A DNA stretch of 64,000 bases from Maribellus sediminis (GTDB lineage: Bacteria; Bacteroidota; Bacteroidia; Bacteroidales; Prolixibacteraceae). The notes beneath the pieces are model-generated. The model saw only the letters and a list, made by a program, of their open reading frames with translations, searched no databases and had not been told where the DNA came from. The translations under genes were made by a program, and so were the position numbers. The DNA is taken from contig NZ_WXUB01000001.1 of the NCBI RefSeq assembly GCF_011799805.1, forward strand, positions 1,426,001 through 1,490,000. The letters run 5' to 3'. Numbering within the stretch: position 1 is the first letter of the stretch; every line of letters starts with the position of its first letter. Shown one piece after another: positions 40,038 to 49,168 of this stretch.

Positions 40038-41591
40038 ATGAAACACAATTTTAGAATCTTAAAGAGAAGTTTATTAGTGCTGCTCTTCTTACCGTTTGTA
40101 ACTTTTGCTCAGGACAAGCCTAATATTTTAATCATTTTCCCTGATGATGTGGGCTGGAGCAATGTAAGCGCTTATGGACACGGCGTAATGGGATACACCA
40201 CTCCCAATATCGACCGGATTGCCAATGAAGGTATCATGTTTACCGAACATTATGCTCAGCCATCCTGCACAGCGGGTCGTGCTGCGTTAATTACAGGACA
40301 GTATCCCATTCGTAGTGGCATGACCACAGTTGGCAGACCCGGTGCTGAACTTGGTCTCAAAAATGAGACCCCTACTCTTGCCGAAGTTCTTAAAGAACAG
40401 GGCTATGCAACCGGGCAATTTGGGAAAAATCACCTGGGCGACAGAAACTCTCACCTCCCTACAGTTCACGGATTTGATGAATTCTTTGGAAATCTTTATC
40501 ACCTGAACACTCAGGAAGAGTACCAGCAAATGGATTATCCGCAAGATCCGGAATATTTTAAAAAATTCGGAACACGTGGCGTACTTCATACCTGGGCAAC
40601 CGACGTGGATGACCCAACGGTTGATCCAAGGTTTGGAAAAGTAGGGAAACAAAAGATTGAAGATACCGGTCAACTCTCGAGAGAAAGGATGGAAACCGTA
40701 GATGAAGAATTTATGGAGGCAATGGTGGACTTCATGAAAAGAGCTAAAAATGATGATAAACCTTTTTTCGCCTGGTTTAATCCGAGCAGAATGCACATGT
40801 TCACCCACTTGAAACCCGAGCATCGATATCTGGCGTTACCTTACACTACCGAGCACGATTTTTATGGAAGTGGTATGATTGAACACGATATGATGATTGG
40901 AGAACTGCTCGACGAGCTGGAGAAAATGGGTGTATTGGAAAATACCATTGTTATTTATTCTACCGATAATGGTCCTGAACACAGTGCCCGTACGCATGGT
41001 GGAACTACCCCTTTCAGAGGCGAAAAAATGACGACTTATGAAGGAGGTGTTCGGGTGCCAATGATGGTGATGTGGAAAGATAAAATTAAAGCAGGCAGGA
41101 CACTTCGGGGCATTCAGGCACATATGGATATTTTTACTACACTGGCTGCAGCAGCAGGGGTACCTGATGTTGTTGAAAAAATGGATAAGGAACGTCATCA
41201 GTACATCGACGGTGTAAATAACCTGGATTACTGGCTGGGTAAATCGGATGAAAGCAACAGGAATAATTTTATCTATTACCACGAGTCAGATATACGGGCA
41301 GTACGTATAAATCAATGGAAAATGCACTTTCAAACCAGTGAAAATTATTACGCGCCTTATGTGAAGCAAAAGTTTCCAATCATGTACAACATCCATTTCG
41401 ATCCATTCGAAAGCTTCGACAACCTTACGGACAGATCGGACATGTTGCAACGAAAGCAATTTATTAACGAACCGATGCAGGAACTGCTTACTGAACACAT
41501 TGAATCGCTGGTGGAATATCCACCCGTTCAAAAGGCAGCCAGCTTCGATTTTTCTGAGATAATCAGGCAATTGAGTGAAGGAAAACAATAG
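40038..41591 (+). CDS. Secreted sulfatase (S1 family), CTAGR type, tandem paralog
   Basis: The 517-residue enzyme has a signal peptide ending TFAQ, NILIIFPDDVGW, the catalytic PSCTAGRAALITG with Cys77, GKNHLGDRNSHLPTVHGFDEFFGNLYHLN and STDNGPEHSARTHGGTTPFRGEK. Long stretches are the same as in the preceding gene, so the two arose by duplication and then diverged, notably in substrate-side loops such as the residues after DNGPE. The motif is again C-x-A-x-R. Separate terminators suggest the two genes are expressed independently. Confidence 0.93.
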   Translation: MKHNFRILKRSLLVLLFLPFVTFAQDKPNILIIFPDDVGWSNVSAYGHGVMGYTTPNIDRIANEGIMFTEHYAQPSCTAGRAALITGQYPIRSGMTTVGRPGAELGLKNETPTLAEVLKEQGYATGQFGKNHLGDRNSHLPTVHGFDEFFGNLYHLNTQEEYQQMDYPQDPEYFKKFGTRGVLHTWATDVDDPTVDPRFGKVGKQKIEDTGQLSRERMETVDEEFMEAMVDFMKRAKNDDKPFFAWFNPSRMHMFTHLKPEHRYLALPYTTEHDFYGSGMIEHDMMIGELLDELEKMGVLENTIVIYSTDNGPEHSARTHGGTTPFRGEKMTTYEGGVRVPMMVMWKDKIKAGRTLRGIQAHMDIFTTLAAAAGVPDVVEKMDKERHQYIDGVNNLDYWLGKSDESNRNNFIYYHESDIRAVRINQWKMHFQTSENYYAPYVKQKFPIMYNIHFDPFESFDNLTDRSDMLQRKQFINEPMQELLTEHIESLVEYPPVQKAASFDFSEIIRQLSEGKQ

Positions 41592-41974: not shown

Positions 41975-44341
41975 ATGAAAACCAAGAACCTTCCTTATTT
42001 TATTCTGGTAGTAGTTATGTCTCTTGCTTTTGCCAACAAAACGTATGGACAGGAAATATTACCATTTCCACCAACGCCTTCAGCTTCAAAGGCAGGAATA
42101 ACGTTATCCGAGTCAACTCACCAGAAAAGACAAACGGTTAATCACCTCCCCGAGGACGCTCCCAACATTGTCATCATATTAATCGACGATGTAGGTCCCG
42201 GACAAGCCGGTACTTTTGGTGGCGAATTTAACACGCCTACTTTAAGCAAAATTGCTGAAGAAGGAATTTCTTACAACCGGTTTCACTCAACAGCTATGTG
42301 TTCGCCTACCCGGGCTTCGTTACTAACCGGGCGAAATCACCACAAAGTTGGAAATGGTCAGATTCCGGAATACGCAAACGACTGGGATGGTTATACCGGA
42401 GTGATCCCCAGAAGTGCTGCAACCGTTGCAGAAGTACTAAAAAATTATGGCTATTCCACCTCCGCTTTTGGCAAGTGGCACAATACTGCACCCGAAGAGT
42501 CAAGTGCTGCCGGTCCTTTCGACCACTGGCCTACGGGTTATGGCTTCGAATATTTTTACGGTTTCATGGCTGGCGATGCCTCGCAATACGAACCTACCTT
42601 ATTTGAGAACACAACATTGGTTCCCGAGGAACACTTTCACAAAAAAGGCTATCACCTGAGTGAAGATTTGGCAGACCAGGCTATCAACTGGATGCGTCAA
42701 CACAAAGCAATAGAGCCCGACAAACCTTTTTTAATGTACTGGTCGAGTGGGGCGGTACACGGCCCCCACCACGTAACAAAAGAATGGGCTGATAAATACA
42801 AGGGGAAATTTGATGATGGCTGGGACGAGTACAGAAAGCGTGTGTATGAAAAGGCAAAAAAACTGGGATGGATACCTGAAAACGCAAAACTTACGCCACG
42901 TCCGTCGACAATGCAAGCATGGGATGACATTCCTGAAGATGAAAGAGCATTCCAGCTGCGTTTGATGGAAGTGTATGCAGGATATGCAGAGCATGTGGAT
43001 GCACAAGTTGGTAAAGTAATTGATGAACTTGACAATTTAGGGTATGAGGACAATACCCTGGTTTTCTATATATGGGGAGACAATGGTGCCTCGTCGGAAG
43101 GGCAACAAGGTACACTTGCAGAGTTGCTGGCACAAAACGGTGTAAAAACAACTACAAAACAGCAAATTGAAGCACTCAATAAGATTGGTGGTTTGGATGA
43201 ATTGGGAGGGAGTAAAGTGGAAAATATGATGCATGCAGGATGGGCATGGGGAGGTAGTTCTCCTTACAAAGGAACCAAACTTGTAGCAGCATACTTTGGT
43301 GGTACCCGTCAACCAATGGCGGTTAGATGGCCTAAGGTAATTAAACATGATAAGGTACCACGGTCTCAGTTTCACCATGTCAATGATATCGTCCCAACAA
43401 TATATGATATTCTCAATATTACCCCTCCGAGAGTTGTAAATGGGGCAGAACAAATGGAACTTGACGGGACCAGTATGAAATATACATTTGACGACCCAAC
43501 TGCTGAAGGTAGAAAGGGTGCCCAGTATTTTGAAATCCACACAAGCCGGGGGATCTATAAAGATGGTTGGTTTGCCTGTGCATTTGGAGTTCGAACTCCG
43601 TGGGTCCAAGGTCTTCCTGACTTCGATAATTGGGATCCAATGAAAGAACCCTGGGAATTGTACAATTTAGAAGAAGACTGGTCGCAAGCCAATGACCTGG
43701 CAAAAAGTAACCCGGATAAACTTGATGAGATGAAGAGTACCTTCCTGGTGGAGGCGGCCAGAAACAATGTATTGCCTATCGGCGGGACTTTTTGGTCAAC
43801 AGCAGCCTTGCACCCCGAAGATGCTCCGGCTAGCCCAATGACAGAATGGAACTTCGCCGGGCCAATAAAACGAATTCCCGAAGCTGCTTCGCCTCGATTT
43901 GGAAGCACATCAAACCAAATGGATTTTGATGTTACGGTTCCCAAAAACGCGAATGGTGTATTGTGTGCTGTGGGTGGTTATCCAGGCGGAGTAAGCTTTT
44001 TTATAAAAGATGGATATCTGAACTATGAATATTGTTTTTTTCTGATGGATCGCACCAGGATTGTTGCCAGTGAAAAACTTCCTGAGGGTAAAGTAAATAT
44101 TCAACTTTTGTCGGAGCTGGAAAACGGGCCGGCCTCAGCTTTGAATATCACTATAAAAGTAAACGGGAAAGAGGTAGCAAAAGGAAAAGTACCTCGCTCT
44201 ATTGCATCAACTATTTCCTATAACGATGGCTTTGATATCGGCCAGGACCTGGGATCGCCGGTTTCTGATGCCTATTTTGACAACGCTCCATTTACTTTTA
44301 ACGGGCAAATAAACAAGGTTGTGGCGAGGTATTTAGAGTAA
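41975..44341 (+). CDS. Secreted arylsulfatase, CSPTR type (AtsA-like)
   Basis: The 788-residue protein has a signal peptide ending TYGQ (about residue 26). Its sulfatase core begins NIVIILIDDVGPGQAGTFGG and has the canonical C-x-P-x-R motif at Cys109 (MCSPTRASLLTGRNHHKVG), FGKWHNT and IWGDNGASSEG. This resembles the long Pseudomonas AtsA-type arylsulfatases. The C-terminal 200 residues form a beta-rich extension ending FNGQINKVVARYLE. It differs clearly from the two preceding sulfatases and is likely to act on a different sulfate ester. Confidence 0.93.
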   Translation: MKTKNLPYFILVVVMSLAFANKTYGQEILPFPPTPSASKAGITLSESTHQKRQTVNHLPEDAPNIVIILIDDVGPGQAGTFGGEFNTPTLSKIAEEGISYNRFHSTAMCSPTRASLLTGRNHHKVGNGQIPEYANDWDGYTGVIPRSAATVAEVLKNYGYSTSAFGKWHNTAPEESSAAGPFDHWPTGYGFEYFYGFMAGDASQYEPTLFENTTLVPEEHFHKKGYHLSEDLADQAINWMRQHKAIEPDKPFLMYWSSGAVHGPHHVTKEWADKYKGKFDDGWDEYRKRVYEKAKKLGWIPENAKLTPRPSTMQAWDDIPEDERAFQLRLMEVYAGYAEHVDAQVGKVIDELDNLGYEDNTLVFYIWGDNGASSEGQQGTLAELLAQNGVKTTTKQQIEALNKIGGLDELGGSKVENMMHAGWAWGGSSPYKGTKLVAAYFGGTRQPMAVRWPKVIKHDKVPRSQFHHVNDIVPTIYDILNITPPRVVNGAEQMELDGTSMKYTFDDPTAEGRKGAQYFEIHTSRGIYKDGWFACAFGVRTPWVQGLPDFDNWDPMKEPWELYNLEEDWSQANDLAKSNPDKLDEMKSTFLVEAARNNVLPIGGTFWSTAALHPEDAPASPMTEWNFAGPIKRIPEAASPRFGSTSNQMDFDVTVPKNANGVLCAVGGYPGGVSFFIKDGYLNYEYCFFLMDRTRIVASEKLPEGKVNIQLLSELENGPASALNITIKVNGKEVAKGKVPRSIASTISYNDGFDIGQDLGSPVSDAYFDNAPFTFNGQINKVVARYLE

Positions 44342-44382: not shown

Positions 44383-44426
44383 AAAAAAAGGATGTCATCT
44401 TTCCGAGAAGATGACATCCTTTTTTA
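44383..44426. terminator. Bidirectional terminator, GGATGTCATC family
   Basis: An A-tract and GGATGTCATCTT (44390-44401) pair with AAGATGACATCC (44408-44419) plus a T-tract, loop TCCGAG-like. It separates the converging arylsulfatase and CspA genes and can end both transcripts. The stem is the same as at 365-393 and 47406-47435. Confidence 0.9.
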
Positions 44427-44479: not shown

Positions 44480-44674
44480 TTACTTCGCGCGTCTTACATT
44501 TACGGCATTCAGTCCTCTTTTACCTTCTTCCAGGTCAAAAGTTACTTCATCGTTCTCTTTTACAAAATCTTTCAATCCCGATGAGTGAACGAAATATTCT
44601 TTTGGTGAATCGGCATCTTTAACAAATCCAAATCCTTTCGATTCGTTAAAAAATTTAATAGTCCCTTTATTCAT
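44480..44674 (-). CDS. Small cold-shock protein (CspA family)
   Basis: The 64-residue protein MNKGTIKFFNESKGFGFVKD has the single cold-shock domain, with RNP1 (KGFGFV) and RNP2 (EYFVHSS) on the nucleic-acid-binding face, and ends GLNAVNVRRAK. It binds single-stranded RNA and DNA and melts RNA structure at low temperature. The start at 44674 gives the normal family length; an upstream in-frame ATG at 44773 would read back through the RRM gene. It is the last gene of the helicase operon, 16 nt after the RRM gene. Confidence 0.95.
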   Translation of the reverse strand: MNKGTIKFFNESKGFGFVKDADSPKEYFVHSSGLKDFVKENDEVTFDLEEGKRGLNAVNVRRAK

Positions 44675-44690: not shown

Positions 44691-44993
44691 TTAATATCTT
44701 CTTCTGTTAAATCCACCGCCACCGCGGTTATCACGGCCACCGTCATTTCTTTCAACTCGTGGACGGGCAACATTTACATTCAGCGTTTTGCCTTCGAATT
44801 CCGTTTCATTCAAAGCTTCAATAGCTTCTTTTCCTGCTGCATCAGCCATTTCAACAAAGCCGAAGCCACGTGAATCGCCGGTGTATTTGTCTGTAATCAC
44901 TTTTGCAGAGCTAACTTCTCCGTATGCTGCAAATAATTCTTCTAAGCTTGTACTTGTAGTGTTGTAGCTTAAGTTCGAAACATAAATATTCAT
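44691..44993 (-). CDS. RRM RNA-binding protein
   Basis: The 100-residue protein has one RNA-recognition motif with RNP2 (IYVSNL) at the N terminus and RNP1 (RGFGFVEM) near residue 42, then a short Arg/Gly-rich tail (GGRDNRGGGGFNRRRY). Proteins of this type are cold-induced in cyanobacteria and common in Bacteroidota. Its place between cold-shock-domain genes, with 31 and 16 nt spacers, supports a shared role in RNA remodelling. Confidence 0.94.
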   Translation of the reverse strand: MNIYVSNLSYNTTSTSLEELFAAYGEVSSAKVITDKYTGDSRGFGFVEMADAAGKEAIEALNETEFEGKTLNVNVARPRVERNDGGRDNRGGGGFNRRRY

Positions 44994-45024: not shown

Positions 45025-45474
45025 TTATTGTGCCGGTTCTATTTTTATGGCATTTAATCCTCTGTTTCCCCGGGCCAGTTCAAAGGTCACTGTGGCACCT
45101 TCAGCAATGTTGGGGAATGCATCGGTAATGTGAAAAAAGTATTTCTCGGTGCTGGCCACGTCTTTAATAAACCCGTATCCTTTATCGTCTTTAAAGTGCT
45201 CAACGCGTCCTTTTAAGGGCTCGTCATCCTGCTCGTCCTTTTTAGGTGTCGAAATCGCTATTTTACTTGCATCCACTCCCTTTTTTTTGCGGGTGATATC
45301 AGGAGCTTCACTTGTAATCCTCCCGTTTTCATCAACGTACGCTATCATATCGTCGAACGATCCACTGCTTCCGCTGGCTTTGCGTTCATCTCTGCGCTGT
45401 TGTTTTTCTTTTCGCTTTTGTGCGCGTTTTTTTTCTAATTCTTTTTTTTGAAATGAAATTGATGATCTACCCAT
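45025..45474 (-). CDS. Cold-shock-domain protein with basic coiled N terminus (copy 1)
   Basis: The 149-residue protein starts MGRSSISFQKKELEKKRAQK, a highly charged helix (about 8-33). A linker containing DDMIAYVDENGRITSEAPD and a C-terminal cold-shock domain (about 86-149: GRVEHFKDDKGYGFIKD, KYFFHITDAFPNI) follow. It is probably an RNA chaperone with an added RNA- or ribosome-binding helix; the latter is inference. A close paralog is encoded at 47459. It is the second gene of the helicase operon. Confidence 0.92.
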   Translation of the reverse strand: MGRSSISFQKKELEKKRAQKRKEKQQRRDERKASGSSGSFDDMIAYVDENGRITSEAPDITRKKKGVDASKIAISTPKKDEQDDEPLKGRVEHFKDDKGYGFIKDVASTEKYFFHITDAFPNIAEGATVTFELARGNRGLNAIKIEPAQ

Positions 45475-45504: not shown

Positions 45505-46623
45505 TTAAACCGCTACCGGGATTAATTTCTTCCCGGTTAAACGCTGTATGTTTCGAACCAAAGAATGTTGGTCTTCGGAACAAAATGAAAGCGCCGTTCC
45601 CTTGTTTCCGGCCCGCCCGGTACGCCCGATGCGGTGAACGTAAGTTTCGGCCACTTCAGGCAGGTCGAAATTGATTACTGTTTCAAGGTTTACAATGTCA
45701 ATTCCACGTGCAGCAATGTCGGTGGCTACGATAACTTTTGTTTTTCGTGATTTAAAATTCTCCAGAGCACGCTGTCTTGCCCCCTGTGATTTATTTCCGT
45801 GAATGGCCTCACTGCCAATTCCTTTACGCTTGAGTATTCGCACTATTTTATCGGCACCGTGTTTTGTACGCGAAAAAATAAGTACCGATTTGTTCAGGTC
45901 CTGTTTCAGCAACGACACCAGCAATTCACTTTTGTGTTGTCGTTCAACGTAATACAGGTGCTGTTCTATTTGTTCGGTGGTCGACGAAACCGGAGTGATT
46001 TTTACCATTACCGGATTATGCAGTATCGACCGCGACAGTGTTGAAATTGCCGCTGGCATGGTTGCCGAAAAAAACAACGTTTGTTTTTGTTGTGGCAGCA
46101 GAGGCAGTAAACGTTTAATGTCGTGAATAAAACCCATGTCGAGCATGCGGTCGGCCTCATCGAGTACAAAATGTTCAACGTGTTTCAGCGAAATGTACTT
46201 TTGATTGATAAGGTCGAGCAGACGCCCAGGGGTTGCCACCAGAATGTCGAGCCCGTTGCGTAATTTATCAACTTGTGGTTTTTGGTTCACACCACCAAAA
46301 ATTACTGCATGGCGAAGGCCCGAAAATTTCCCGTATTCCCAAAAGCTTTCGCCAATTTGTATAGCCAGCTCCCTGGTTGGGGTTAATATAAGGGCTTTTA
46401 TTTCGCGGCGTCTTTCGTTTCTGAAAGATTCGTTCAGCTGTTGTATAATGGGGATGGCAAAGGCCGCCGTTTTCCCGGTGCCTGTTTGTGCTATGCCCAA
46501 TATATCGCGGCCACTCAGCGCAGCCGGTATTGCCTTCTCCTGAATAGGAGTAGGCGTTTTGTAGTTTTTGTTATGCAGAGCTTTTAGTATCGGCTCCGAA
46601 ATGTTTAATTCTTTAAATGTCAT
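45505..46623 (-). CDS. DEAD-box RNA helicase (RhlE-like)
   Basis: The 372-residue helicase has a Q motif (TPTPIQEKAI), motif I AQTGTGKT (45-52), motif Ib TPGR, motif II DEAD (155-158), motif III SAT (186-188), motif V ATDIAARGID and motif VI HRIGRTGRAG. It ends soon after the helicase core without the long basic tail of many RhlE or CsdA proteins. It would unwind cold-stabilised RNA using ATP. It leads the operon helicase, cold-shock-domain protein, RRM protein, CspA and lies behind a leader of about 450 nt. Confidence 0.94.
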   Translation of the reverse strand: MTFKELNISEPILKALHNKNYKTPTPIQEKAIPAALSGRDILGIAQTGTGKTAAFAIPIIQQLNESFRNERRREIKALILTPTRELAIQIGESFWEYGKFSGLRHAVIFGGVNQKPQVDKLRNGLDILVATPGRLLDLINQKYISLKHVEHFVLDEADRMLDMGFIHDIKRLLPLLPQQKQTLFFSATMPAAISTLSRSILHNPVMVKITPVSSTTEQIEQHLYYVERQHKSELLVSLLKQDLNKSVLIFSRTKHGADKIVRILKRKGIGSEAIHGNKSQGARQRALENFKSRKTKVIVATDIAARGIDIVNLETVINFDLPEVAETYVHRIGRTGRAGNKGTALSFCSEDQHSLVRNIQRLTGKKLIPVAV

Positions 46624-46952
46624 ATTTTATTTTCTGTGACTTTACACAGCGTTTTTAATTAATAAATGTGAGGAATGTTTCGTGATTTGAGGATGGTAAC
46701 AAACTAACTTCATTCAAAAAAGCAACTGCACAATTCCGCCCCTTATAGGTGGTTTTGTACAAGCGCAAATTCCTCTTTGTTTTGAACGAACCCGCTCAAA
46801 ATGTTTCTCTATTGTTTTCGGTTGCTACTAATTTGGAAGAAGGTAAGGACCACATCAGATCAAAGGGCAAAACGCCGGAGGGTATTCTTACTTTACAAAA
46901 TAATTGTGTCATATATTAAAAAGTGTGTGTCACGATTTTGCTTTACACACTT

Positions 46953-47089
46953 CGCGACTTGTTAATCTGTACAAGAAAGTTGATTTTGATGTCGATTTGA
47001 CGATGGGAAGATTCGCTGACAGGTTGCGAAACAAAGCATTGCTATAAAGACGATTCAATAAAAACCTGATTGTCAAGGCGACAAAGGTA
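46953..47089 (-). promoter_or_regulatory. Promoter and conserved leader of the cold-shock helicase operon (copy 1)
   Basis: On the minus strand the -7 box TACCTTTG (47082-47089) is followed about 40 nt later by a block that also occurs at 48058-48192. Shared features include ATTGAAT-N-GTC, CAATGCT, then TTTCGC-N2-CCTGTCAGCGAATC. The last can fold as a TTCGC/GCGAA hairpin whose only variable bases are in the loop. CATCGTCA and AACA-GT-GCG close the block. The remaining leader to the helicase ATG (46624-46952) is unique and has a GTGTGT/ACACAC stem at 46921-46952. A long structured leader before cold-shock genes recalls the enterobacterial cspA leader, but there is no sequence resemblance. Confidence 0.7.
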
Positions 47090-47402
47090 CACATTTAATT
47101 GGAATAAAATAATTAATACTGATTTATCTGATTTATGGGACGAGCTTGTCTCGATTTTCAGTCTTTGAATTGTGTTATATCTTGTACCTGATCGAAATAC
47201 TTTTTTGAACGTTTGAGATGAATAAAATTTATAGTGAACTTTTAATTTCAGATAAATCGTTCATTACATGCCATTTATTAAATGCGTATCAACGCCACGA
47301 AGAAATTAATCTCACTCACAATCTTAAGTTTCATTGTGTTCGGGAATAAGTAGAACTAAACTGTCGATTTAAAAGACGGTAAGTACCAGTGTCCTCCAAA
47401 AT
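47090..47402. other. Spacer between cold-shock units, nothing recognised
   Basis: AT-rich DNA without a credible gene, repeat or promoter, between the helicase-operon promoter and the terminator at 47403-47443. Confidence 0.5.
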
Positions 47403-47443
47403 AAAAGGATGTCATCTTTCTGAAAGATGACATCCTTTTTTTT
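47403..47443. terminator. Terminator of the second cold-shock unit, GGATGTCATC family
   Basis: AAAAGGATGTCATCTTTC pairs with GAAAGATGACATCCTTTT across a T. T-tracts flank both sides (TTTTTTTT on plus, TTTTAT on minus), so it ends the minus-strand gene at 47459. The stem is nearly the same as at 44383-44426. Confidence 0.9.
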
Positions 47444-47458
47444 ATGAATAATTCGATT

Positions 47459-47920
47459 CTAAGGATTCTGTTTTTTCTCGGCAGGTTCAATATTAACGGC
47501 ATTCAATCCGCGATTTCCTTTTGCCAGCTCAAATGTTACCATGTCGCCCTCAGCAATGTTGGGGAAGGCCTCGCTAATGTGGAAAAAGTACTTTTCGATG
47601 CTCCCCAGGTCTTTAATAAATCCGTAACCTTTATCTTCCTTGAAGTGTTCCACCCGTCCTTTTAATGGCACATCTTCCTGTTCTTCTTGCTTTGGTGTTG
47701 AAACCGCAATTTCATTCACATCAATTTCCGTTTTTTTCGTGAGATCAGGAGCTTCGCTTGTAATCATCCCGTTTTCATCAACATACGCTATCATATCATC
47801 AAGTGATCCACCTCCACTGTTGGCTTTTCGCTCTTCTTTACGTTGTTGTTTTTCTTTCCTTTTTTTTGCTCGTTTTTTCTCTAACTCTTTTTTATTATAC
47901 GAAATTGATGATCGACCCAT
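47459..47920 (-). CDS. Cold-shock-domain protein with basic coiled N terminus (copy 2)
   Basis: The 153-residue paralog of the 45025-45474 product has the same MGRSSIS start, the KKELEKKRAKKRKEKQQRKE helix, DDMIAYVDENGMITSEAPD linker and cold-shock domain (GRVEHFKEDKGYGFIKD, KYFFHISEAFPNIAEGD). The linker between (about 58-84) has diverged most. It is a single-gene unit with its own copy of the conserved leader and its own terminator, so promoter, leader, gene and terminator were duplicated or kept together. Confidence 0.93.
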   Translation of the reverse strand: MGRSSISYNKKELEKKRAKKRKEKQQRKEERKANSGGGSLDDMIAYVDENGMITSEAPDLTKKTEIDVNEIAVSTPKQEEQEDVPLKGRVEHFKEDKGYGFIKDLGSIEKYFFHISEAFPNIAEGDMVTFELAKGNRGLNAVNIEPAEKKQNP

Positions 47921-48057
47921 GCATTATATTTTTAAAATTCTGACTTTCTATTTAACACAATAACCATTTTAACCTCCAGCGTGGAAATGGCTAATACAAC
48001 TATTAGGCATTAATTCCTGTTACTGGGAACAAGGCGAAACAGCTTTCCTTTTTTCCG

Positions 48058-48192
48058 GCGCAACCTGTTATTCTAAACAGAAACTTGAGTTTAATGTCGG
48101 TCTGACGATGAGAAGATTCGCTGACAGGCAGCGAAACACAGCATTGTTTTTGACTATTCAATTATTACCGGAATGCCAGGACTGCAAAGTTA
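48058..48192 (-). promoter_or_regulatory. Promoter and conserved leader of the second cold-shock gene (copy 2)
   Basis: The minus-strand -7 box TAACTTTG (48185-48192) lies 39 nt before the same conserved block as in copy 1 (ATTGAAT-N-GTC, CAATGCT, TTTCGC-N2-CCTGTCAGCGAATC, CATCGTCA, AACA-GT-GCG). The two blocks agree at roughly three quarters of positions by eye, and the spacing from promoter to block is kept (39 and 41 nt). The leader to the ATG at 47920 would be about 260 nt; 47921-48057 shows no further match. Confidence 0.7.
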
Positions 48193-48265
48193 GGAATTAT
48201 ATTGGAAATAGTAAATATTCCGGATTTATATGTTCCGTGCTGGTTAACGAGACGGACACTTTACC

Positions 48266-48286
48266 CAATTAAGTGCGACTTAATTG
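48266..48286. other. Perfect 9-bp inverted repeat
   Basis: CAATTAAGT and ACTTAATTG flank GCG. There is no T-tract in either direction. It lies 52 nt past the end of the minus-strand gene at 48338 and upstream of the copy-2 cold-shock promoter, so it could be an operator or a weak transcription barrier. Confidence 0.4.
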
Positions 48287-48337
48287 TGCCCTTAAGAAAA
48301 GATTGACGTTTTTGGAGCGTTTGCTCCACCACAATTA

Positions 48338-49168
48338 TTACTGGTTTTTTTGCTCCAGATTTTTTAAAACCTCCTGTGCAAATTCCGAATTTTTACTGTC
48401 TTCTTCGAGGTTATTGTAACGGGTGCGAATTGTGGCAGTGTCTAAAAGATCGAGTTCACGGCTTAAAGCATACGCATCAAAAACTTCGTAGATCCGGTGT
48501 ACTTTATGCCCGTAATTTGTCATCGAACCTTCGGGAGTAAGTGCATTGGCATATTTACCAAAGAGTTCTTTTTCGAGTACCCCGGTTGAAGTTGCTTCAC
48601 GAAGAACCAGGTAAGCATTCAAATCGGGAACTTGAATGTTTTTCAGAAATTCAATTTTCTGATTCTCGAGGTCCTGCATCTTTTCTTTAAAAATCAGCAT
48701 TTTGGCATTCACCTGATCTTCATTCAGGGTACTGTCCGATAGAATCTTTCGCAGTTCTGCCAGATCATTCATTTCGGTTTTCCTGAAGCCGAGAAACTTG
48801 TTGTAGATTTTGGCGATCGGCGTACCTGAAAAAGCACGGTCAAATTCATCTTTTACTGCAACTTGCAAGCGCTCTCCATTTGCGATCAAAAAATCAAAGG
48901 CGATACTGTCTTTTCCTTTTTCAACGATCTTGTAAGGAGCAAGATGCTCGTTTATATTTGAATTTTCGAAAACAAACTTCCCTTTATCAACCTGGGCCGA
49001 ATCAAGCAAAATATCGGCTTCCATCGGGTTAACCTTATAAAGGTAAACCACTTTGCTTGTTATGCCGGAACCTTTAATCTGCCAGTTATTTTTCTCTTTT
49101 CCGCAATTCTGCATTAATACAGCGGCAAGAATAAGCGCCAAGAGTTTTAATTTTTGTATGTGCTTCAT
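48338..49168 (-). CDS. DUF4369-domain lipoprotein
   Basis: The 276-residue protein has a signal ending VLMQNC with Cys22 as a probable lipid site (the lipobox is atypical at -1). An N-terminal DUF4369-type beta domain (WQIKGSGITSKVVYLYK, LLDSAQVDKGKFVFE, RAFSGTPIAKIYNKF) and a helical C-terminal half follow. Many DUF4369 proteins carry a thioredoxin domain behind this region; here no CxxC is present, so it is a stand-alone form. Function unknown, presumably envelope. Confidence 0.75.
   Translation of the reverse strand: MKHIQKLKLLALILAAVLMQNCGKEKNNWQIKGSGITSKVVYLYKVNPMEADILLDSAQVDKGKFVFENSNINEHLAPYKIVEKGKDSIAFDFLIANGERLQVAVKDEFDRAFSGTPIAKIYNKFLGFRKTEMNDLAELRKILSDSTLNEDQVNAKMLIFKEKMQDLENQKIEFLKNIQVPDLNAYLVLREATSTGVLEKELFGKYANALTPEGSMTNYGHKVHRIYEVFDAYALSRELDLLDTATIRTRYNNLEEDSKNSEFAQEVLKNLEQKNQ

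Follow-up and report, generated by a model that had tools for sequence, protein, structure and literature searches.

The window, a stretch of 64,000 nucleotides from Maribellus sediminis (contig NZ_WXUB01000001.1, positions 1,426,001 to 1,490,000), carries two cold-shock transcription units on its minus strand. One is a helicase operon, in which a DEAD-box RNA helicase is followed by a cold-shock-domain (CSD) protein with a long N-terminus, an RRM RNA-binding protein and a small CspA-like protein; the other carries a second long CSD gene. Each unit has a -7 promoter box, a leader and a terminator-like hairpin (Table 1). On the plus strand, two ORFs (40038-41591 and 41975-44341), presumably sulfatase-like to judge by their sequence features, point towards the cold-shock operon. 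Both leaders are long, as the initial annotation had proposed: the ATG of the helicase lies 459 nt, and that of the second CSD gene 265 nt, beyond the end of the -7 box. The largest part of the helicase leader lies 3′ of the element described below and includes a 38-codon ORF.

Table 1. Features of the two cold-shock transcription units and of the leader element in the window.
Feature	Position	Strand	Remarks
Terminator-like hairpin 3′ of helicase operon	44383..44424	-	Not covered by terminator scan
Small CspA-like protein	44480..44668	-	Pfam CSD, E 9e-16
RRM RNA-binding protein	44691..44993	-	Pfam RRM_1, E 1.7e-19
Cold-shock-domain protein, long N-terminus, operon copy	45025..45474	-	Pfam CSD, E 2.5e-11
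DEAD-box RNA helicase	45505..46623	-	Pfam DEAD, E 3e-53
38-codon ORF (MTQLFCKVRIPSGVLPFDLMWS...)	46796..46912	-	ATG at the place of the relatives' NMO ATG
Copy A of leader element (helicase operon)	46908..47085	-	Full model 1-177; R3 match E 1.6e-30, 166.3 bits
P5 3′ strand ACACACTT	46921..46928	-	Pairs with P5 5′ strand AAGTGTGT
P6 3′ strand CGTGAC	46929..46934	-	Pairs with GTCGCG
P5 5′ strand AAGTGTGT	46945..46952	-	P5 79.9% paired, double changes in 10/10 pairs
P6 5′ strand GTCGCG	46953..46958	-	P6 87.9% paired, double changes in 6/6 pairs
P4 hairpin CTTGT-loop-ACAAG, copy A	46958..46975	-	80.5% paired, double changes in 4/6 pairs
Conserved strip TCTTCCCATCGTCAAATCGACATCAAAATCAACTTT, copy A	46976..47011	-	15/36 positions at least 90% conserved, 64 copies
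P2 hairpin TTTCGC-loop-GCGAA, copy A	47012..47031	-	94.0% paired, both-side changes in 5/5 pairs
P0 hairpin CAAT-loop-ATTG, copy A	47056..47072	-	94.4% of cells paired, 64 copies
-7 promoter box of copy A, TACCTTTG	47082..47089	-	Sequence at this place
Terminator-like hairpin 3′ of second CSD gene	47403..47442	-	Near-identical to that of helicase operon; scan lists palindrome on + strand only
Second long cold-shock-domain protein	47459..47920	-	Pfam CSD, E 1.9e-12
Copy B of leader element (second CSD gene)	48014..48188	-	Full model 1-177; R3 match E 8.3e-20, 114.3 bits
Conserved strip, copy B	48081..48116	-	Sequence position
P2 hairpin, copy B	48117..48136	-	Sequence position
-7 promoter box of copy B, TAACTTTG	48185..48192	-	Sequence at this place

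The two leaders share a promoter-proximal element, which confirms the initial annotation's observation as a whole. Both -7 boxes lie exactly where they had been placed, and the spacing from box to conserved block, 41 nt in copy A and 39 nt in copy B, was reproduced. Local alignment of the two leaders gives a score of 74, against a mean of 11.8 and a maximum of 19 for 500 dinucleotide-shuffled pairs, and the repeat D4 (46974-47041 and 48079-48146) is 87% identical across 68 nt. The TTCGC/GCGAA hairpin occurs in both copies, with differences confined to the loop, as had been described. The shared block of about 135 nt is indeed conserved, but had been drawn too short: the 177-position model runs from the -7 box to 46908 in copy A and to 48014 in copy B. 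In copy B, the 3′ hairpin is degenerate although the full model 1-177 is matched (alignment A2). Across the genome of M. sediminis, the core with up to two mismatches matches the two window copies only. The final model likewise returns two strong matches; the next, with E values of 0.64 and 2.35, are weak and were taken as chance.

The units also resemble each other outside the leader. The terminator-like hairpins and the CSD genes are alike, the DNA blocks being 76% and 81% identical, and the two long CSD proteins are 75% identical. The near-identical end hairpins point to an old duplication of the transcription unit. Because duplication alone would explain the pair in the window, the case for function rests on other genomes.

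Covariance models in three rounds gave 65 distinct copies in 52 genomes, that of M. sediminis included, from ten families of a single order, and the further copies before CSD and DEAD-box genes that had been anticipated in relatives were thus found. Models R1 to R3 were built from accepted matches, and gene context serves as the independent check. The genome counts are lower bounds, samples of more than 40 genomes having been searched with Infernal's stricter filters: a 91-base query picked up 16 copies, spread over 11 of 37 congeneric genomes; R1 (16 sequences) matched 15 places, all full length, in 11 of 393 genomes of the order sample; R2 (23 sequences) matched 6 of 120 genomes of the family and 5 of 395 in a sample of the class, every one of the five belonging to the window's own order; and R3 (29 sequences) matched 22 of 118 genomes from the family to which G263 belongs, 10 of 151 from that of G119 and 13 of 393 in the order sample. 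In the phylum sample, the only R3 match among 183 genomes was the window's own genome, so that no match fell outside the order in the class sample (395 genomes, R2) or the phylum sample. The majority of sampled genomes of the order have no copy, which counts against the reading as a leader RNA. In three genomes (G004, G018 and G032), R2 placed CSD-gene leaders on contigs separate from the helicase operon. A search with the exact 22-letter core gave a single match (L032), which lies inside a coding gene and is a chance match; with up to three mismatches allowed, 34 of 101 genomes, the own one among them, yielded 43 matches, versus 7 in the backward control. Eight of them represent the element (two in the own genome, two in G011, one each in G004, G015, G031 and G032), the others having been judged by loop pattern at most.

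The position of the element is constant: in related operons it sits on the coding strand, between a Bacteroidota-type -7 box and whichever gene comes first. The motif TAnnTTTG stands at the model start in 49 of the 65 copies and the looser TAnnTTnR in 61, although the TTTG half of the box lies inside the model and only the TA half counts as independent. Promoter geometry in Bacteroidota puts the start of the transcript at or just before hairpin P0, and the element therefore appears to form the 5′ end of the mRNA.

The genes behind the element recur even though the model itself contains no coding sequence. Context was examined by tblastn with the helicase, long CSD, RRM and small CspA-like proteins and a nitronate monooxygenase (NMO), over up to 1500 bases past each match where sequence was available. 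For 62 of the 65 copies, a member of one operon set is the first gene recognised, at no more than 500 nt. Counted by first substantial gene, these are the helicase in 28, NMO in 22, the long CSD gene in 11 and RRM in one, with none in three; the raw first tblastn match gives 27, 23, 11, one and three, the two counts differing because the NMO match of L118 is a 38-residue relic before the helicase. In four of the 22 NMO-first copies (L108, L112, L114 and L128), NMO is matched in part only. The initial annotation had taken every controlled gene for an RNA chaperone or helicase. Its description of the element stands, and its interpretation stands in part: the gene claim is true of the window but fails in relatives, where NMO, whole or truncated, comes first in 22 of 65 copies. 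NMO is an enzyme for which we know of no role in the cold or link to cold shock, and its frequent place as first gene counts against the leader-RNA reading. Among 18 longer regions, the order NMO-helicase-CSD-RRM-CspA is complete in two (L141 and L142), partial in 13 and absent in three (L065, L093 and L116).

The simplest history would start from a single ancestral operon headed by the leader, followed by repeated gene loss. The NMO match starts 169-181 nt after the model start in all but two of the 22 copies, the exceptions being G384 (237 nt) and L138 (303 nt). In five helicase-first copies (L086, L110, L111, L113 and L118), an NMO-like start is left between leader and helicase, as judged by eye except in L118, suggesting that the body of the NMO gene was lost repeatedly while the start codon and first residues were retained. 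The 38-codon ORF of copy A may be such a relic of the NMO gene, or a leader peptide: short ORFs start from the same ATG in G004, G018 and G032, and a similar ORF is kept there, by eye, in the close relatives L066, L067 and L069. Other contexts are rare. One copy (L093:1501-1684) precedes a gene for a RelA/SpoT-domain protein, with an apparent relic of the NMO start between them; behind L065 (G031:C1:7166873-7166963) there is no operon gene but a transposase remnant, presumably IS66-like; and L116, near a contig end, is followed by an 84-aa ORF of no matched family.

The core of the element comprises hairpins P0 to P4 and a conserved strip between P2 and P4, which is mostly unpaired apart from P3. 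Structure was scored on the MAFFT alignment A6 of 64 copies. For P0 to P4 together, 87.1% of cells are paired, compared with at most 54.0% in slid controls. Doubly changed cells number 64, against a shuffled mean of 27.9 (0 of 500 shuffles as high) and at most 47 in slid versions, although both tests ignore kinship and related sequences inflate such counts. The observed count of 13 core pairs with double changes was also attained in 89 of the 500 shuffles and in slid versions. When all 15225 column pairs were compared for covariation, the two highest ranks both went to P2 pairs; the top 60 hold two pairs of P2, one of P0 and one of P6, and none of P1, P3, P4 or P5, while the remainder are mostly non-helix pairs, largely reflecting relatedness. 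Covariation, which had been named as a check on the element, is thus present, and P2 is the hairpin that it strongly supports, even as its loops differ in length and sequence among copies. P1 (83.1% of cells paired, double changes in 3 of 7 pairs) and P0 are less certain, because they are kept as pairs yet hardly predicted to form: mean thermodynamic probabilities are 0.02-0.03 and 0.06-0.07, respectively. A protein-coding role for the leader is not favoured, since the copies vary in loop length and in reading frame.

At the 3′ end, most copies offer two alternative hairpins. P5 (AAGTGTG:CACACTT plus inner pairs) is 79.9% paired, with slid versions reaching at most 62.5%, and has a covariation score of 0.214 (slid, at most 0.140); the corresponding values for P6 (GTCGCG:CGTGAC) are 87.9% (at most 61.0%) and 0.269 (at most 0.153). 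Doubly changed cells number 30 in P5, against 15.8 when shuffled, and 20 in P6, against 6.3, with 0 of 500 shuffles as high in either case, yet sliding P5 by -2 reaches 36 and sliding P6 by +1 reaches 17. The two hairpins thus appear clearly separated from slid controls by percentage paired and covariation score only, and P5 less clearly overall. Their strands follow in the order a-b-a′-b′ with hardly any linker, and order and one base are common to both; on geometric grounds, P5 and P6 should therefore not both be fully formed at once. Both pairings are possible in 38 of 64 copies, of which 25 favour P6 and 12 favour P5, the better one coinciding with the local minimum in 34. The energy gap at 37 °C stays within 3 kcal/mol in 23 of these copies and exceeds that value in 15, which speaks against a single mechanism. 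The 3′ switch cannot be essential, because it is degenerate in copy B and has no room in G263, G346 and G933, where the start codon comes 108-129 nt after the model start. Temperature has only a weak effect on predicted folding: between 5 and 45 °C, the mean probability of P5 falls from 0.39 to 0.30 and that of P6 rises from 0.38 to 0.47, and in copy A the values pass from 0.25 to 0.18 and from 0 to 0.22.

A recurrent structured leader RNA whose main hairpin is kept is probably a regulatory RNA, undescribed so far. Comparison shows that a conserved, structured leader lies next to the promoter in front of RNA-chaperone genes, most copies having two alternative hairpins at the 3′ end: a real leader RNA, and apparently one new to description. 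The element would be the 5′-terminal, structured, cis-acting leader of the order's ancestral RNA-chaperone (cold-shock) operon, and would set the output of that operon, probably through translation of the first cistron or else, conceivably, through mRNA stability. The strip may offer a docking site to a binder of single-stranded RNA, in the simplest case a CSD, RRM or helicase product of the operon itself, and a shift from P5 to P6 would expose about six additional bases ahead of the first AUG. The rbpB mRNA has a binding site for RbpB on itself, as given in the available text of PMC11697453, so that autoregulation is plausible in Bacteroidota. The likeliest signal would be cold, or a scarcity of free RNA chaperone in chilled cells. 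Cold sensing and autoregulation are what we infer, and gene content alone suggests temperature. Taken as a whole, the combination of cis-acting leader of the ancestral operon, control of its output and cold as the likeliest signal is, on balance, the explanation we think probable.

Several other explanations would account for part of these observations. The leader could act as a protein-free RNA thermoswitch that refolds by itself with temperature, as the E. coli cspA leader does, the choice between P5 and P6 setting ribosome access; the near-equal energies of the two hairpins in 23 of 38 copies, the compensatory changes in both and the cold-shock genes behind the element are consistent with this, but prediction shows little change between 5 and 45 °C and P5/P6 is absent or degenerate in several copies, and we regard it as somewhat unlikely. 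It is less likely again that the leader is a ligand-sensing riboswitch, in which strip and P2 form an aptamer for a small molecule tied to NMO or general stress and P5/P6 is the expression platform. A conserved strip beside a well-supported hairpin, with an alternative 3′ hairpin, has the look of aptamer plus platform, and the first gene is often an enzyme; the variable P2 loops, a strip largely unpaired in the model and genes united mostly by RNA handling rather than by one metabolic pathway argue against such an arrangement.

Transcription attenuation, in which the 3′ hairpin, followed by a run of T in copy A and certain other copies, stops transcription early unless remodelled, is improbable: the P5 strand of copy A does run into five T, and the Csp proteins of E. 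coli are antiterminators, but the T run is missing from many copies and a scan of 46600-48400, whose loop limit of 8 would miss P5, found no minus-strand terminator. There is slightly less still to be said for the conserved stretch acting as DNA, with a transcription-factor operator beside the promoter and the hairpins as palindromic halves. The element touches the promoter and P2 reads as an inverted repeat; set against this are the compensatory changes, the variable loop length, a conserved 36-nt strip that lacks symmetry and G-U pairs common on one strand. At columns 162/195, P6 most often has a G-U pair (39 copies), which fits RNA and not a DNA palindrome. Least probable by far is a mere duplication within the window, the leader being kept by recent descent. 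The terminator-like hairpin and similar CSD genes common to both units speak for it, but copies with compensatory change across ten families refute duplication as the complete explanation, and the CSD-gene leaders on contigs other than the helicase operon's (G004, G018 and G032) also weigh against it. A more specific form of the preferred cis-acting leader is possible, and we put it forward tentatively: an order-specific RNA switch before the whole operon, which would read the supply of free chaperone or helicase, and thereby temperature, through the choice of which of its two covarying hairpins forms ahead of the first start codon.

RNA-based control in Bacteroidota is little known. According to the available text of PMC12119571, these bacteria are credited with KH, RRM and cold-shock-domain proteins in place of Hfq, ProQ and CsrA. 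Were the order-specific switch true, RNA-remodelling capacity would be self-regulating in bacteria said to lack those three proteins. The leader, common to helicase, cold-shock, RRM and oxidoreductase genes in ten families, offers a defined, testable element; it bears on how RNA-chaperone levels are set, and possibly on how cold is sensed, in Bacteroidota, and it ties NMO to the RNA-chaperone operon.

The initial annotation knew of no described element of this sequence, and Rfam 15 and a literature search agree. In neither the window nor 17 relative loci does any Rfam family attain its gathering threshold; at E ≤ 5, the region 46600-48300 has ten sub-threshold matches, with other families at 47292-47462, off the element, and none to the family 'cspA', which we take to be that of the E. 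coli cspA leader or thermosensor. Among the best-ranked titles and abstract openings of a mostly open-access literature collection, no description of such an element was found. As a lineage-restricted candidate for a structured RNA, it is comparable to Bacteroidales-1, Bacteroides-1, Bacteroid-trp and Flavo-1 in the available text of PMC2864571. Unlike these, it has no match to the Rfam-numbered motifs of that paper, a comparison that left out Bacteroides-2 and GUCCY-hairpin, and the main text has 'cold shock' and 'helicase' 0 times. The Bacteroides thetaiotaomicron map PMC7366714, in its available text, assigns riboswitches and RNA thermometers by Rfam homology, and neither there nor in the corresponding text of the later atlas PMC10994844 is the element mentioned. 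BT_1884 of B. thetaiotaomicron is a CSD protein with an N-terminal extension of about 80 residues (PMC11648934, available text), similar, by description alone, to the window CSD proteins with their long N-terminus, and RbpB (PMC11697453, available text) may be compared as an RNA binder whose own mRNA offers it a site; the available text of both papers describes the proteins and mentions no conserved leader element. Another close parallel is with E. coli cspA, whose product, in the available text of PMC9947658, is an RNA chaperone acting on its own mRNA. Like the cspA leader, the element is a long structured 5′ leader before a CSD gene, the long CSD coming first after 11 of 65 copies and standing within the operon elsewhere; unlike it, the element has no Rfam match, precedes an operon with NMO, helicase, CSD and RRM genes, and is matched in this order only. 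It is best seen as a candidate for a new family of structured leader RNA, which is not a member of the cspA family and resembles it in place and in class of gene.
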